39,926 nt of DNA, from positions 1-39,926 of IMG/VR virus record IMGVR_UViG_3300037205_000144. The stretch is one strand, 5' to 3'. This stretch comes from a virus. Made by a program: the position numbers and the translations under genes. Within the stretch, counting starts at the first letter, position 1, and every line of letters starts with the position of its first letter. The notes below the pieces were generated by a model. It ran no database searches. It was not told the DNA's origin and was given only the letters and a program-made list of their open reading frames with translations. This document shows, in pieces, positions 15,478 to 25,289 of the stretch.

Positions 15478-15524
15478 GATCGTACCGACCCAAGTAATGG
15501 TTAATTGAGATGCTCTGAAGATAC

Positions 15525-15560
15525 AAAAGCCCGGTCTCCACTAAGGAGATCGGGCTTTTT
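15525..15560. terminator. Bidirectional Rho-independent terminator
   Basis: A long stem (15525-15539 with 15545-15558, one mismatch) with an A-run on the left and TTTTT on the right. It sits between the rightward operon ending at 15477 and the leftward protease gene ending at 15592, and can stop both transcripts. Confidence 0.93.
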
Positions 15561-15591
15561 GTCACCATTCCCCAACGGTTATCGCTCAGTT

Positions 15592-16443
15592 TTACTGAGC
15601 GAATGTCACATTATCGATCACCGCCGCAGAATTTCCAACGCTATTGCATTTACGGCCGTTTTTATCGACGTATTTAATCCAAACGTAACCGTCTTCACCG
15701 TAGGATGTTCCCCAGCTATTTTTTACTAACCAAGCCTGCGTCGAGTCATCCCATCCGACTATTGATACCATATGGTTTTCTCCACCGACGCGACAACCAT
15801 TAAAAACGCCCTTCTTGTAAGCCATGAAGGCGTTATCGGCGTAAATTGTGACTACCACGGGGGCTTTGACCTGGAAGAGCGCTTGCTTGATATCATCGGT
15901 AGTAGGAGAACTTCCACTCCCCAACATGTGCCAAGAGACAACAGTTCCCGACGCGGGAGCGGTGTGACACCGTCCGTTGTGACCGATGAAGGGATAGGCC
16001 GCGGAAGCGGGTACACCTTGTTCTGCCTGATCAAGCGCGGTGAAATATCCACCGTTGCAACCGAAAGACTGCTGGTCGCAGTCGATAAGATATTGGGGCG
16101 ATAGAGAGACGCCTTTGTTGCCGGGAAAATTCTCAACGGCTCCGGCGCTAGCGAACGCCCAGCATCCACCGCATTGGTTTTGGTTGGTGATGGGCAGAAG
16201 TGCCGTGAGCTTAAATTGAGCAGGGACCGCTTGAGGAGCGAATACCATGTGAGGAAATTGGTGGAAGACTTCCGGCGTCACGTGTCCCGTGGCGTGCAGA
16301 CCTTCCCATTTCCACTGGAAGGACCAGCCTTCAGCTTTCGCTCTCTCCTGTAATTCTTGCTCGATGGTTGGCTGAGCGCGGATCGCCGTCGATAAGAACA
16401 ACGTCAACATCGCCAAGATAAGGTAATTCACTTTGAATTTCAT
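15592..16443 (-). CDS. Secreted papain-like cysteine protease (peptidase C1)
   Basis: A 283-residue protein from the ATG at 16443, which has GGGGGAG upstream and opens with a Sec signal peptide ([20 protein letters not shown], cleavage after IRA near residue 23). The mature part has all papain hallmarks: oxyanion Gln88 and catalytic Cys94 in [11 protein letters not shown], the DC-x(n)-GCNGG block near 121-132, catalytic His224 in [10 protein letters not shown], and Asn242 in [17 protein letters not shown]. The propeptide is short (about 50 residues) without an obvious ERFNIN helix. It would act in the periplasm or outside the cell. Peptidase C1 is very unusual in a phage genome. It may aid lysis, degrade a host surface or secreted protein, or have been captured from a host. 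All catalytic residues are intact. Confidence 0.93.
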
Positions 16444-16540
16444 TTTTCTCCCCCTGTTTTTTTTCCACCACTTCGTTAATAGCCCTGCGTAACAAAATGT
16501 TTCCAATTCTAAAGTGGAGTTCTGTCGGTAGGTGTTTCAT
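16331..16540 (-). CDS. Possible small gene overlapping the protease start
   Basis: A 69-codon frame that starts in an ATGA overlap with the gene at 16537 and runs 113 bases into the protease gene in another frame. The first half ([20 protein letters not shown]) looks like a normal helix; the second half overlaps the signal-peptide region and may be non-authentic. It fills the otherwise empty 93 bases before the protease and could couple its translation. No family is recognised. Confidence 0.3.
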
Positions 16541-19824: not shown

Positions 19825-20867
19825 TGAAAAAGCTTCTTGGTCTTATTTTATTCTGCGCCATCGCACGAGGCTCGGGTGTGGGCAACGGCAACGTGCTTAT
19901 TCCAGGAGTCCCAACCCTCTCGACTCCCATGACGCGACAAATCTTCCAACGCAATAGTAGCAACATTGGAAGCGTGTCCATCAGTGGCACCGGCACGGGA
20001 ACTTTTACTGCCGTGCAAGCTTCTACTACCGTCACTAATGGTGGCACGGCGGTGCCATGGACCACTATTTATACGGGCTCTGGCCCTTCTTTCAGTGGCA
20101 TTTTGCCGGTGGGACCTGGGCAATATTCACTTCTAGTCAGACTTATGCGTGGGGGCATTGGGGGAGGTCCGGCCACCATTGCTAAAGTGGGAGTCGGGGA
20201 AATATTTTTAGTTGCCGGGCAATCCTTGGTAGCTAACTGGGGCAATAATATAAATACCCCCACCGATGATAGAGTATCTAACGTCACCTATGCCGGAGCA
20301 TGGGCCTTTGCTCAAGATCCACAGCCCAATTGCGATGGAACCGGAGGCTCTCCGATTCCGGCGATGGGATCAGCCCTTGCAAGTTACTTAAATATGCCCA
20401 TTGGAATTATGTCGATAGCGATTGGAGGTACAAGTTCCGCGCAGTGGGTAGGAACTGGCTCTCCTAATTATTTTGTAGGAAATTTTGAACCGGCACTTAC
20501 TTTACTAGGAACTAATTTTAGAGCAGTCATCTGGGAGCAGGGGCAAGCCGACGGAATAGCCGGCGTCACCGCGGCACAGTACGAAACGAATATCGCTAAT
20601 CTCATCGCTGAAGTGAGAACTTATGCCGGATGGAATATGCCCTGGGGAATTGCTAGTGCCTCTACAATTGCAGCAGACACAGCTTATCCAGTAATCGCTG
20701 GAGCACAGGCTTTCATCGTATCCAATGATACATTGGTATTCCAAGGTAGTAACTCCGATTCAATACCCAACAGCGACCGCTGGGATATGACCCACTTCAA
20801 TGCGGCAGGGCAGCTAATCCATGGTGGCCTTTGGGCTACAGCCATTGAAACTTATTTCGGCTGGTGA
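19824..20867 (+). CDS. Secreted SGNH-type carbohydrate acetylesterase
   Basis: A 347-residue protein with a short signal peptide ([16 protein letters not shown]). The catalytic domain matches sialate/xylan O-acetylesterase-like SGNH hydrolases. EIFLVAGQSLVANWG carries nucleophile Ser134, IAIGGTSSAQW the block II glycine, AVIWEQGQADG the W-x-QGE/Q-x-D block III, and DRWDMTHFNAAG the Asp321/His324 pair. It probably removes acetyl groups from a surface polysaccharide such as LPS O-antigen or capsule. Residues 50-110 form a beta region that could bind the fibre protein. The start overlaps the fibre-like stop, so the two are translated together. Combined with a signal peptide, this points to action in the periplasm or at the cell surface from inside the infected host. 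Confidence 0.78.
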   Translation: MKKLLGLILFCAIARGSGVGNGNVLIPGVPTLSTPMTRQIFQRNSSNIGSVSISGTGTGTFTAVQASTTVTNGGTAVPWTTIYTGSGPSFSGILPVGPGQYSLLVRLMRGGIGGGPATIAKVGVGEIFLVAGQSLVANWGNNINTPTDDRVSNVTYAGAWAFAQDPQPNCDGTGGSPIPAMGSALASYLNMPIGIMSIAIGGTSSAQWVGTGSPNYFVGNFEPALTLLGTNFRAVIWEQGQADGIAGVTAAQYETNIANLIAEVRTYAGWNMPWGIASASTIAADTAYPVIAGAQAFIVSNDTLVFQGSNSDSIPNSDRWDMTHFNAAGQLIHGGLWATAIETYFGW

Positions 20868-21163
20868 TTCGGTTTTATTTTGGAGCAATCTTTCGATGCG
20901 TCATTTAAAGCCTGAATCTGATGCTGGCACTCCCCAGCTAACGAGTTAGAGAGTAAAATCACCCTCTCGACGACTTTTTTTGGATCAGAAATATACTCGA
21001 TAGAATTATTTTTAGTATCGACGGTAGCCATAACTTTACCATCCGCGTCCATAATATGCTGATAGCGAATTTGCGCTGGGGGGCGCGGCTCTTGGGGGTG
21101 GCTAGGTTTTTTGGCTTCTGCCATGGCTAGGGAAGTTAGCAGAAGAAGTAGATAAATTTTCAT
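20852..21163 (-). CDS. Small secreted protein with paired Cys
   Basis: A 103-residue protein with a signal peptide (MKIYLLLLLTSLAMAEA) and a Pro-rich mature start (KKPSHPQEPRPPAQ). A beta hairpin-like part (GKVMATVDTKNNSIEYI) is followed by a helix with two Cys (AGECQHQIQALNDASKDC). AAGGA precedes the ATG. It converges on the esterase gene with a 16-base overlap at the 3' ends and faces away from the structured region at 21187. No lipobox is present, so it is not an obvious o-spanin. No family is recognised. Confidence 0.6.
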   Translation of the reverse strand: MKIYLLLLLTSLAMAEAKKPSHPQEPRPPAQIRYQHIMDADGKVMATVDTKNNSIEYISDPKKVVERVILLSNSLAGECQHQIQALNDASKDCSKIKPNHQPK

Positions 21164-21186
21164 TTCGCGTCATCCTTAGAAATTAG

Positions 21187-21345
21187 ATAAGCCCAGGTTA
21201 TTCCTTTACGGAACGACCTGGGCTTATTATTGTCGGTCTCTAACACGGATTGCTTTTTAAACAACAAACTCAATCCGTGGCTTACTGCTACCTAGGACCG
21301 ACCTTAATAAAACCGGATCCCGGTAGCAAGCGAAATTTGTTGTTT
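21187..21345. repeat. Nested and interlocked inverted repeats (candidate origin or structured RNA)
   Basis: Four perfect inverted repeats occupy 160 bases between divergent genes. (1) A 12-bp stem 21187-21198/21216-21227 has an inner TTCC/GGAA stem. (2) GTCGGTC 21232-21238/21296-21302 encloses CACGGATTG 21244-21252/21271-21279. (3) TGCTACC 21286-21292/21322-21328. (4) AAACAACAAA 21259-21268 in the loop of (2) pairs with TTTGTTGTTT 21336-21345. Pairing (4) crosses (2) and (3), giving a pseudoknot topology. The primase-helicase gene starts 19 bases after the last arm. A replication origin or a folded mRNA leader controlling the primase are the main options. Confidence 0.7.
21229..21248 (+). promoter_or_regulatory. 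Shared upstream motif, copy 1
   Basis: ATTGTCGGTC followed by TCTAACACGG. Copy 2 at 27415-27436 has the same 10-mer, two extra bases, then TCTAACGCGG. Each precedes a rightward transcription unit (primase-helicase and late operon). TATTAT overlaps the left edge here and could be a -10 element. Possibly a common activator site. Confidence 0.5.
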
Positions 21346-21363
21346 CTTGCATGGGGATTTGGA

Positions 21364-23502
21364 ATGACGATGGTCGAGCACGCTTTAGAACTTGCCTCTC
21401 ACGGTTTTCCGGTTTTCCCACTAGCTCCCCGGACAAAGATTCCTCCCAAAGGGCTCACTCATTATAAAGTTGCCACTACAGATCCCGCGGCCGTTGAAGC
21501 TTTGTGGCAGAAGTACGGCGCCCAATGCAACGTGGGCCTTCTCATGGGAGTTGGTCTTCTCGGATTAGATTTCGATCTCAACAATGGTGCCGACATGGCA
21601 TTTTTTGAACACATTCCGCCCACATGGTGCGCAAGGAGCAAAAATGGATTCCACCCCTATTACAGAATTCCAAGCCACTGGCCAAAAGACATCACCAAAA
21701 TTGACCTGGTCAAGGCGGCTAAGGGTAAAGCTTGCATCACCCTTCGTGCTCATCATCACTATTTTGTCGGCGCTGGTTCGATTCATCCTGAAGGAGGAGT
21801 CTACGAGTGGGCAAAGAACCAAGGACAGTGGCCAGGAATTGACGCTGACATCCTCGGCCCAGGAGAGCTTGAATGTGCCTTTGCCCCAGATTGGATGCTT
21901 ACCTCCTGGCACGCTAGTCACGATGAATCCCAGAATAGAAATCCTAGAGATTTATCCCAACGAGCAAGAGACGCCGGTTATTTCTCCGTCGGAACTGAAA
22001 TCGGAAATGGAAAATATCCAAGCCGACCTTCCAGAAATAAAATCCTTGCCAACTCCCGACACTCTGAGCTCACCCGCACCGCCGTCGCCTGTCGCAAAGA
22101 AGGCAAAGACCTCGAAGCGATCGTCGAGCGCCTCACCTTCCGCAATCAGAATGACTGCGATCCGCCAATCGGCTCAGAAGTCGGTGGAGAAAAAAGAGAT
22201 GCCCAAAAAGAAATCTACAATCTCGCCAAGTGGGCTGTCGCCACTGTAAGTGTCGACGAGAAAAAGATGAAAGAAGCCGAAGCGAAAGAGCAGGAAAGAG
22301 AAAATAATCCCAATGCCGATATTGTTTACACTCCCTTTCCCGATGAAAATCACAACGGCATTCGCAAGGGCACGATTGAAAATGTCACCGAGTTGTTACG
22401 TCGACTGAAGGTGGTTTGCCGGTATAACGGCATCACCAAAGAACAGGAAATTCTAATCCCAGGGCTATCAACTACCATTGACAATCGAAGCAACGTAACG
22501 GTGGCTTGGCTTACCAGTTGGTGCAAACGCTGCGGAATTCCCACGGGGGAATTGGGCGGGTACTTGACTGCAATTGCCGATAGCAATCTGCACAACCCCG
22601 TCGCCGTTTGGATCGAAAGCAAACCATGGGACGGCGTCTCCCGAATTAAAGACTTGCTAGATACTGTTTACGCTCCCGACACCAAGATGAAAGACCTTCT
22701 TATCCGCAGATGGTTGATCTCGGCTGTCGCAGCGGCTTACGAGCCTAATGGGGTTAGCGTTCGCGGCGTACTCGTGTTCCAGGGAAAACAGAATGTGGGC
22801 AAAACCCATTGGATAGAGAAGTTGGCTCCCAAGGAACTAGTTCGCACCAACGTGTCACTCAAATGCGACGACAAGGATTCAGTCTACAAAGCGATCTCAG
22901 CTTGGCTAGTGGAGCTCGGCGAACTCGATTCCACTTTCAAGAAGTCTGAGATCTCGCAGCTCAAAGGGTTCCTCTCTTCCGATTCGGATATGATTCGACG
23001 GCCCTACGATAAGCGGGAGAGCCACTATGCCCGTCGCACCGTCTACTTCGGATCGGTGAACCCGGATGTGTTTCTAAATGACGACACGGGCAATACTCGT
23101 TTCTGGGTTATCAAGTGCCATCGCATACACCATCTTCACTCTATTGACGTCCAACAACTCTGGGCTGAAGTGCTCACCCTCTATAGAGCAGGTGAGACTT
23201 GGAGGCTGACAGAGCAAGAAGTCGAAGAGCTCAACGCTAACAACGAAGAATACCAATCGATCGATCCCATCGAAGAACGCATGCTCGATTGGTATGGATG
23301 GGGCCTTCCGGCCGAGCAAGTTGTCATGTACCCGGAGAGCTCTACCTCTATCTGCATGACCATAGGCATCACGAATCCAGGGCGCGCTGACACCGTTGCG
23401 GCTGGTAAAGCGGCACGGAAGCTCACTGGCAGAAAGCCGGATCGAGAGCGAAAGTTCCTTATGCCGAGGCGGAGAGACCCCAAGCCACCTCCTAGCTACT
23501 AG
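21364..23502 (+). CDS. Primase-polymerase / VapE-type helicase
   Basis: A 712-residue replication protein from the ATG at 21364; the frame is open from 21250 but would cross the structured region. The N-terminal Prim-Pol (archaeo-eukaryotic primase) domain shows HGFPVFPLAPRTKIPPKG, catalytic D69 and D71 in LGLDFDLNNG, and GFHPYYRIP. A charged linker follows. The C-terminal VirE/VapE-like P-loop domain has PWDGVSRIKDLLDTVY, Walker A QGKQNVGKTHW (residues 474-481), the acidic ELGELD Walker B region, a DDKDSVYK motif and sensor-like FGSVNPDVFLNDDTGNTRFW. It should prime synthesis and unwind the origin. No phage DNA polymerase is visible, so host replicase recruitment is expected. The basic Pro-rich tail is PRRRDPKPPPSY. 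Confidence 0.88.
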   Translation: MTMVEHALELASHGFPVFPLAPRTKIPPKGLTHYKVATTDPAAVEALWQKYGAQCNVGLLMGVGLLGLDFDLNNGADMAFFEHIPPTWCARSKNGFHPYYRIPSHWPKDITKIDLVKAAKGKACITLRAHHHYFVGAGSIHPEGGVYEWAKNQGQWPGIDADILGPGELECAFAPDWMLTSWHASHDESQNRNPRDLSQRARDAGYFSVGTEIGNGKYPSRPSRNKILANSRHSELTRTAVACRKEGKDLEAIVERLTFRNQNDCDPPIGSEVGGEKRDAQKEIYNLAKWAVATVSVDEKKMKEAEAKEQERENNPNADIVYTPFPDENHNGIRKGTIENVTELLRRLKVVCRYNGITKEQEILIPGLSTTIDNRSNVTVAWLTSWCKRCGIPTGELGGYLTAIADSNLHNPVAVWIESKPWDGVSRIKDLLDTVYAPDTKMKDLLIRRWLISAVAAAYEPNGVSVRGVLVFQGKQNVGKTHWIEKLAPKELVRTNVSLKCDDKDSVYKAISAWLVELGELDSTFKKSEISQLKGFLSSDSDMIRRPYDKRESHYARRTVYFGSVNPDVFLNDDTGNTRFWVIKCHRIHHLHSIDVQQLWAEVLTLYRAGETWRLTEQEVEELNANNEEYQSIDPIEERMLDWYGWGLPAEQVVMYPESSTSICMTIGITNPGRADTVAAGKAARKLTGRKPDRERKFLMPRRRDPKPPPSY

Positions 23503-23696
23503 AACTCTTCCTTTGATACCAAGTGCTACGTAGTCGAACGTTCTTTTTAAAAAGAACGTAGCGCCGGAACGCGGCTCTCGTTAAGGCTATACCGTTGTTT
23601 GTTACGTTGTTACGTTCTTTTTCTCTAAAAATTAGAAATTAGATATATAGCAAAATAGACATGGTACTGAATTAGAGAGAGCCTCTAAAAACCGAT
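23503..23696. repeat. Intergenic palindrome and direct repeats after the primase gene
   Basis: ACGTTCTTTTT-AAAAAGAACGT (23538-23559) is a perfect 22-base palindrome flanked by GCTACG/CGTAGC (23525-23530 and 23557-23562). The half-site ACGTTCTTTTT recurs at 23612-23622, just after a tandem GTTACGTT-GTTACGTT (23601-23616). The palindrome could terminate transcription in either direction, or the group could be iteron-like binding sites. No gene is seen here. Confidence 0.55.
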
Positions 23697-23939
23697 TTGA
23701 AAGGTATAGAAAAGACCGTCGCACTACGTAACATCGTCGCACTTTCGGTTGCCGCCGATCCCGGTTCGGGTATCCTTAGCCTCATGGGGCTAGCATTCTT
23801 ATTCGCGGTGTCATTCCTTATTGGGATCCTGGTGAAGAAGATGAACGATGGGTGGTTGATTAGAGGCGATGCGTTGCCGCGGTACACCGATACACCGCTT
23901 AAGGAGATCGGGAAGATTCTATCGAAGGATCAGCAATGA
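23697..23939 (+). CDS. Small membrane protein (TTG start, uncertain)
   Basis: An 80-residue frame with a hydrophobic segment (ILSLMGLAFLFAVSFLIGIL) followed by a basic KKMNDGW and a soluble tail ending LKEIGKILSKDQQ. The TTG start at 23697 lacks a good ribosome site; an ATG at 23784 would remove most of the N-terminus. The ATGA overlap with another hydrophobic mini-gene suggests a real two-gene unit of membrane proteins. A holin/antiholin-like pair is possible but unproven. Confidence 0.45.
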   Translation: MKGIEKTVALRNIVALSVAADPGSGILSLMGLAFLFAVSFLIGILVKKMNDGWLIRGDALPRYTDTPLKEIGKILSKDQQ

Positions 23940-24049
23940 GGTTTTGGCTTGTACCCATGGTGATGATGGTGGTGGTGTCTACGATGATGCTCGGGATGGT
24001 TATGCTGAGATTCTACTTTTTTTTTACATCGGTGATTGGGCCCAGCTGA
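23936..24049 (+). CDS. 37-residue Met/Val-rich membrane peptide
   Basis: Starts in an ATGA overlap with the 80-residue gene. MRFWLVPMVMMVVVSTMMLG continues hydrophobic to residue 34, giving one long transmembrane helix. The last 37 bases overlap the 3' end of the leftward glycosyltransferase gene. Function unknown. Confidence 0.45.
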   Translation: MRFWLVPMVMMVVVSTMMLGMVMLRFYFFFTSVIGPS

Positions 24050-24786
24050 ATAGCCGATGGGCTATTGGTCACCTGGTGAGCGTGGCAAGGGCAGAAGGGC
24101 TTCGTCGTCCTACCGTTCCAATTAGCTCCCATGGGAGCGTTCTCACTGGCAAGGTGGTAGCAGAAGAGCTGGGGTAAGAGTACTCGCTTCACCCTGGGCC
24201 ATTGGAGTGCGAATAGCACATCACTATGCTCCGAGGTCCCAGCGCTCCCTGGATACGTTCGATGCTGACTCGAGTGCCACATCTGGAAATATCCGATTGG
24301 ACAGTATCCATAGTCACCATGGAGTAGCCGAGAGCACATCTTGAAGTCTCCATGCGGCATCACATGGCATCCATCCTGCCACTGGGGAACTAGTCGATGC
24401 TGGACCGTCTTCCATTGGTCGTAATTCTGAACGTAGAGTCGATCAGCACCGTATATGCAATCCTTCTCTGGCTTCGCGGTATTCAATAGGTATCTGAAGC
24501 GATGCGGCAAAGCCGTGTCGGCATCCAAGTGGATGAGCCAGTCATCGTGCCTCAAGTGGGCCAAGCCCAAAGTGATCGCCCTGCCCTTGTTGAACTTATC
24601 CCCGTGTTCGGTAAACACGTCAGTGTCGATGCAGACAACGCCGAGGTGGTTACAGAGGTCCTTAGTCGCCTTGTCGTCCCGGCTGGTAACGACCACGACG
24701 TGGTCTAAATGCTGCAAGTTTTCCGGCAAGGTATGAGCCAAAAAATCACTGTAATTGACGCAGGTTATAATAGCCTCAAGGCGCAT
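24013..24786 (-). CDS. GT-A fold glycosyltransferase (family 2-like)
   Basis: A 257-residue enzyme with the GT-A outline. LEAIITCVNYSDFLAHTLPE is the first beta-alpha unit, HVVVVTSRDD the second, GRAITLGLAHLRHDDWLIHL leads into the DxD metal-nucleotide motif DAD (residues 88-90), and FQMWHS and ALQWPRV blocks follow. It should transfer a sugar from a nucleotide-sugar to an unknown acceptor: a virion protein, a modified base in phage DNA, or a host surface glycan. AGGGGGAA precedes the ATG. The gene is isolated downstream of the duplicated element at 24837-25224, which probably holds its promoter. Confidence 0.8.
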   Translation of the reverse strand: MRLEAIITCVNYSDFLAHTLPENLQHLDHVVVVTSRDDKATKDLCNHLGVVCIDTDVFTEHGDKFNKGRAITLGLAHLRHDDWLIHLDADTALPHRFRYLLNTAKPEKDCIYGADRLYVQNYDQWKTVQHRLVPQWQDGCHVMPHGDFKMCSRLLHGDYGYCPIGYFQMWHSSQHRTYPGSAGTSEHSDVLFALQWPRVKRVLLPQLFCYHLASENAPMGANWNGRTTKPFCPCHAHQVTNSPSAIQLGPITDVKKK

Positions 24787-25289
24787 CGGTTCCCCCTGCC
24801 GAGCATTCTAAACTAGTTTTGAAAATTTTCCTGCGGTCGAATTTTTGCGTTTCGAAACCGTATTCGAAATGCCTTAAAACCGATTTAAAACGTTCCCGGT
24901 TGCGTTGCAACGCGTTAAGGCAGGTATCCGGCTGGGCGGTCGTCCGGAAACGCCTTGTAGGCAAGGTTCTCGAAGAATACAGGTAAAAATTTCAGGGTGC
25001 CAAAAATTGTCACAAATCTTAAAGGAACGCGCGAGATAAGCCCTGGATTAGGGCGAAGGCTTTTCGAATTTTTGAGCCGTCGGTTTCGAGGTTTCGATTC
25101 GTTTTTAAAATGCCCGGGAAACCGCGCCGAAACGGCCTAGGTTCGTTTGCGGCGCGTCGACGCAGGTATCCGGTTCGGTAAGATTTTTGACACTTTTTGT
25201 CAGGCTAATGCCGTAAATTGTCACTCTGAAAAAGGCAAAAAAAAGAGGCATAGCCTCTCTCGAAGCTATGCCTCTTTTTGCAGCGGGGT
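24787..25289. repeat. Duplicated composite non-coding element (two copies)
   Basis: Two diverged copies, 24837-25013 and 25064-25224, share three blocks in the same order: TCGAATTTTTG (24837 and 25064, identical), GCAGGTATCCGG (24920 and 25162, identical) and TGCC-NN-AAATTGTCAC (end 25013 and 25224). A palindrome precedes the middle block in each: GCGTTGCAACGC at 24902 and GCGTCGACGC at 25154. Around the middle block about two thirds of bases match over 69 positions without gaps. In-frame stops in copy 2 argue against coding. The region lies upstream of the leftward glycosyltransferase and ends at a terminator. Options are tandem promoters/operators, an origin, or a recombinase site. Confidence 0.6.
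25237..25279. terminator. Bidirectional Rho-independent terminator
   Basis: A 14-bp perfect stem (25241-25254 with 25265-25278), 10-base loop, an A-run on the left and T-run on the right. It lies 11 bases past the stop of the leftward gene at 25290 and closes that operon; it would also stop rightward transcripts from the repeat region. Confidence 0.95.

Follow-up and report, generated by a model that had tools for sequence, protein, structure and literature searches.

What is the role of the densely paired stretch of about 200 bases that separates a minus-strand small gene (20852–21163) from the plus-strand primase gene (ATG at 21364) in the viral record IMGVR_UViG_3300037205_000144? The window analysed here is the whole of that record, 39,926 bases in length, which carries a portal-like gene together with terminase- and capsid-like genes that are common to other records. 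In this intergenic stretch the first-pass annotation had seen four perfect inverted repeats with pseudoknot topology before a primase-helicase gene, and had offered a replication origin, a self-folding regulatory leader or a small structured RNA as candidate roles. Domain matches bear out the naming of the gene:

21364–23502, plus strand: primase gene, 712 amino acids, with a Prim-Pol domain (PF09250) and a VapE-like helicase domain (PF05272)
21353–21357, plus strand: GGGGA, the Shine-Dalgarno-like sequence of the primase gene

The primase reading frame is open from 21250, and a GTG at 21277, inside the structure, is a possible alternative upstream start. A promoter scan of 20700–24100 found no sigma-70-like promoter. 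Elsewhere in the record, strong intergenic hairpins with T-rich flanks at 15524–15600 and 25240–25280 are probably bidirectional terminators, and a minus-strand ORF (15592–16506) that adjoins lysis and tail-type genes resembles, by eye only, a cysteine protease of the papain type that bears a signal peptide, which would be unusual phage cargo.

An unbiased exact-stem search of 21185–21346 recovered every inverted repeat where it had been placed: a 12-bp stem (21187–21198/21216–21227), a 10-bp stem (21259–21268/21336–21345), a 9-bp stem (21244–21252/21271–21279) and two 7-bp stems (21232–21238/21296–21302 and 21286–21292/21322–21328), all exact and summing to 45 bp. This pairing exceeds chance. 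Among 2000 dinucleotide-preserving shuffles the combined stem length averaged 4.2 bp and peaked at 29 bp, with none reaching at least 45 bp, and when 162-bp windows were scored across the record in steps of 20, the leader ranked first with a score of 42, the next-best place scoring 28. The predicted RNA fold of 21180–21363 has an energy of −77.4 kcal/mol (z −8.55), equalled by none of 200 shuffles, and the four lowest z-scores of a fold scan of the whole record all fall in the leader region. With DNA parameters the fold is still strong (z −7.3). When the first hairpin, P0, is left out, the plus strand folds at −48.8 kcal/mol, against −41.8 kcal/mol for the minus strand (z −4.2). A structured leader before the primase gene is thus real and unusual; one detail to be corrected is its distance from the gene, the last arm ending 18, rather than 19, bases before the ATG. 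The elements of the leader are:

21186–21228, plus strand: P0, a separate, strong hairpin with arms 21186–21204 and 21210–21228, followed by TTATTATTG
21232–21242, plus strand: P1 5′ arm, GTCGGTC plus CTA, partner 21293–21302
21244–21279, plus strand: P2 hairpin, 9-bp stem (21244–21252/21271–21279) with an 18-nt loop
21259–21268, plus strand: PK 5′ arm, AAACAACAAA, within the P2 loop
21280–21292, plus strand: P3 5′ arm, GCTT then TGCTACC, partner 21322–21331
21293–21302, plus strand: P1 3′ arm, adjoining the P3 5′ arm with zero gap
21322–21331, plus strand: P3 3′ arm, GGTAGCAAGC, shared with the competing Shine-Dalgarno hairpin
21336–21345, plus strand: PK 3′ arm, TTTGTTGTTT, shared with the competing Shine-Dalgarno hairpin
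21313–21362, plus strand: competing hairpin over the Shine-Dalgarno sequence, outer arms 21313–21321/21354–21362 with G-U pairs, −22.7 kcal/mol

The arms follow one another in the order P1 5′, the P2 hairpin with PK 5′ in its loop, P3 5′, P1 3′, P3 3′ and PK 3′, so that P1 crosses P3 and P2 crosses PK, while P3 (with GCTT/AAGC) is nested within PK. The interlocked topology proposed at the outset therefore stands at the level of sequence, where pairing of the P2 loop with 21336–21345 spans a 7-bp stem and the 7-bp stems themselves cross; the 12-bp hairpin has to be taken out of it, P0 being a separate nested element outside the knot. It is probably a terminator or insulator, was not picked up by a simple terminator scan, and lies immediately before P1, leaving little space for a promoter between them. 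A descriptor of the topology, run over 1.06 Mb of DNA, matched only the leader (on both strands), one AT-rich stretch and one simple inverted-repeat stretch, and gave two matches in 3.2 Mb of shuffled controls. The P2 loop also holds a slippery-like heptamer, UUUAAAC (21256–21262), with no upstream frame that requires slippage.

The hairpin at 21313–21362 links this structure to the start of the gene. Its stability (z −4.3) was equalled in one of 1000 shuffles, and when the bases after 21345 alone were shuffled, 8 of 500 sequences folded equally well. In the pseudoknot-free ensemble the pairing probability of GGGGA is near 1, its first base excepted, and the primase start ties for the highest occlusion among the 38 phage gene starts compared. 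Because it needs G-U pairs, this hairpin belongs to the plus-strand RNA and is not an inverted repeat of the DNA. The minimum-energy structure, computed by a program that cannot form a knot, omits P3 and PK and pairs 21313–21321 with 21354–21362. Since the 3′ arms of P3 and PK lie inside the hairpin, it and the combination of P3 and PK are mutually exclusive.

These predictions suggest that the primase mRNA carries 21232–21362 as its 5′ leader and that this leader acts in cis as a two-state translational switch, a reading to which we give an even chance. In the OFF state, P1 and P2 would form alongside the hairpin at 21313–21362, covering the Shine-Dalgarno sequence. In the ON state, 21322–21331 would pair with 21280–21292, and 21336–21345 with the P2 loop (21259–21268), giving a knotted fold or, if P1 and P2 were absent, one long imperfect helix, with the Shine-Dalgarno sequence and ATG exposed in either case. 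As the ON partners are transcribed ahead of the strand that carries the Shine-Dalgarno sequence, the nascent RNA could fold into the ON state first; in folding of successive 3′ ends, the Shine-Dalgarno hairpin first appears near 21360, once the P3 and PK arms exist. The nascent ON state would then relax to the more stable OFF state, capping the yield of primase per transcript, or the balance between the two might instead be set by a ligand, the primase protein or an antisense RNA. In pseudoknot-free energies OFF (−48.8 kcal/mol) lies about 15 kcal/mol ahead of the best fold that leaves the Shine-Dalgarno sequence free (−34.1 kcal/mol), which may make the ON state rare; the long PK and P3 helix with P1 and P2 open comes to −26.2 kcal/mol in the same kind of model. 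Transcription of the leader, formation of both states and the driver of switching are all three things that we infer. Counting against the switch are the lack of a sigma-70-like promoter in 20700–24100, the failure of the searches described below to find a homologous leader, the possible GTG start within the structure and the mostly unremarkable upstream regions of VapE relatives. Such a switch would probably set the amount of primase made.

The nearest likeness is to the plasmid leaders of repZ (IncI-alpha ColIb-P9) and repA (IncB, IncL/M), where a hairpin loop pairs with bases just before the Shine-Dalgarno sequence of the replication gene. In these leaders a competing stem hides the Shine-Dalgarno sequence, and in ColIb-P9 repZ translation of a leader peptide opens that stem. 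In the phage leader, loop 21259–21268 pairs with 21336–21345 (10 bp, exact) just upstream of the Shine-Dalgarno sequence, and the predicted hairpin at 21313–21362 would hide both that sequence and the distal arm of the knot. The phage leader differs in having another sequence, an additional crossing stem (P1/P3) and a PrimPol-VapE-type gene. The plasmid group is also marked by an antisense RNA directed at the hairpin loop; in the phage region the promoter scan gave no promoter-like site. No ATG-started ORF precedes 21351, nor was a short Shine-Dalgarno-bearing ORF ending in the stem found, and as the leader-peptide ORF is absent, membership of the repZ/repA group is not claimed; the best reading, by analogy, is that the phage leader works like these pseudoknot leaders but is not filed among them. 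A second comparison is the T4 gene 32 mRNA operator, an RNA pseudoknot in the leader of a phage replication gene (PMC3014915). There the knot lies ~67 nt upstream, and after it comes an unstructured track, rich in A+U, that spans the ribosome-binding site and is bound by an ssDNA-binding protein (PMC3014915). In contrast, the primase gene has its ribosome-binding site inside a stable predicted hairpin, and its product is a primase-helicase. An operator of the gene 32 type was rejected, as the primase ribosome-binding site has no unstructured A+U-rich track over it.

Searches for relatives of the leader were negative within their scope. Rfam gave no match at gathering score and chance-level matches only at E up to 10, comparison of the leader DNA with phages and plasmids gave nothing above chance, and a search of IMG/VR with leader fragments found no relative; L139 shares one 16-mer with the leader and nothing more. 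A covariance model of the nested OFF fold, which reaches close relatives only, being built from one sequence given twice, matched only itself in 607 kb of DNA. Pairs of AAACAACAAA and TTTGTTGTTT in L128–L138 were considered as leader relatives and rejected, as no P2-like hairpin surrounds the first arm there, bar two weak 7-bp chance stems. The group I intron and HDV-like readings that the crossing topology brought up were also dropped, both for want of an Rfam match and the latter because its stem order differs from that of HDV. For the N-terminus of the primase, no relative was found among viral contigs and only weak matches in Gordonia phages, and in the relatives of its VapE core (~52% identity and below) nothing corresponding to the N-terminal Prim-Pol part could be detected. 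Since the regions upstream of these VapE-core relatives are mostly unremarkable, the leader is no feature of VapE genes in general. In another group of VapE phages (L035, L037 and L038), a strong fold (z −6.1) lies ~300 nt upstream of the VapE primase ORF.

The other readings of the locus draw on features at the edges and the 3′ side of the primase gene:

23526–23731, no strand assigned: candidate replication origin, with a YTACGTW cluster, three ACGTTCTTTTT copies and an AT-rich 100 bp
21176–21189, plus strand: left copy of the 14-bp direct repeat TTAGAAATTAGATA, at the edge of the leader-primase module
23632–23645, plus strand: right copy of TTAGAAATTAGATA, at the edge of the leader-primase module

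YTACGTW was picked post hoc; 7 of its 18 sites in the record fall within ~200 bp 3′ of the primase gene, at five distinct places, and in an unbiased 6-mer test this region ranks high, with several others equal or higher. The sites lie on both sides of the 100 bp with the highest AT content in the record (23611–23710, 71%), on the left at 23526–23616 and on the right at 23724–23731, where the set amounts to one place. The ACGTTCTTTTT copies in 23503–23760 are both inverted and direct, one pair forming a perfect 22-bp palindrome (23538–23559). PICI origins are placed directly downstream of the replication gene, where an AT-rich stretch lies between two groups of repeats (PMC6092414), and the phage locus resembles this SaPI-like pri-rep-ori arrangement in having repeats beside an AT-rich stretch directly 3′ of a primase gene. 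Unlike that of a PICI, the primase gene here belongs to a phage record that also carries capsid, portal and terminase genes of its own, and the passages of PMC6092414 on pri-rep-ori describe no folded leader.

The replication origin is more likely to be found on the 3′ side of the primase gene than in the leader. An origin in the leader itself, whose inverted repeats would either form extruded hairpins or serve as binding sites for the primase-helicase, would suit the perfect Watson-Crick repeats adjoining a replication gene, the strong fold with DNA parameters and the copy of the 14-bp repeat at 21176 on its edge. We consider it unlikely, as the leader is not the AT-rich minimum of the record, the 3′ region is the better candidate, and a DNA origin would have no evident need of crossing pairs or of G-U pairs over the Shine-Dalgarno sequence. 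We hold it likewise improbable that the region encodes an independent, structured small RNA, or an antisense RNA on either strand, that acts for example on the primase mRNA or on functions of the host and for which P0 would serve as terminator or cap. The compact multi-stem fold with its crossing pairs would fit such an RNA, as would the folding of the minus strand, yet Rfam holds no match, no strong terminator directly follows 21345, and the fold extends into the primase start, where it shares bases with the Shine-Dalgarno hairpin. Of the three roles suggested in the first-pass annotation, the self-folding regulatory leader fits best, since the plus-strand-only hairpin over the Shine-Dalgarno sequence shares bases with the knot, and the origin fits less well here than just 3′ of the gene, where there are clustered repeats and the most AT-rich stretch.

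A further reading would make the leader structures one end of an inserted, mobile or swapped-in replication module of 2.46 kb, comprising leader, primase gene and 3′ repeats between the 14-bp direct repeats. These are exact at both edges, with no further copy within two mismatches. The primase was not found in 14 records of capsid relatives (from L083–L099) in a weak search run without a positive control, and separate tblastn of seven of them also failed to find it. Pfam identified Pol A in G003, G004 and G011, which a protein of G008 resembles by eye, and D5/DUF5906-type proteins in G003, G008 and G011. Because the capsid relatives lack the primase, and Pol A, D5-type proteins or both are present in those that were examined, the replication module looks swapped in. 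Against insertion as the explanation of the leader, the module contains no recombinase, a relative with an empty site was not found, the gene, at 0.515, matches the record, at 0.505, in GC content, and the 14-bp repeats, rich in AT, might serve as binding sites; the fold that hides the Shine-Dalgarno sequence would also be left unexplained. We therefore regard this reading as quite improbable, and the repeat pair may be either an insertion mark or a pair of binding sites.

The translational switch thus remains the preferred reading. A 2010 review noted that there may be no viral pseudoknot in translational autoregulation other than the T4 gene 32 operator (PMC3014915). Plasmids are already known to ration a replication initiator through pseudoknot switches. 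It is conceivable, though rather unlikely, that the leader represents a novel kind of cis-regulatory RNA in phages, with a knotted leader of several stems in which the primase start would be open while the RNA is nascent and later hidden by refolding, so that primase is rationed per transcript. If true, this would be a larger case in an unrelated phage replication module, and would suggest that DNA phages too ration replication enzymes via knotted leaders.
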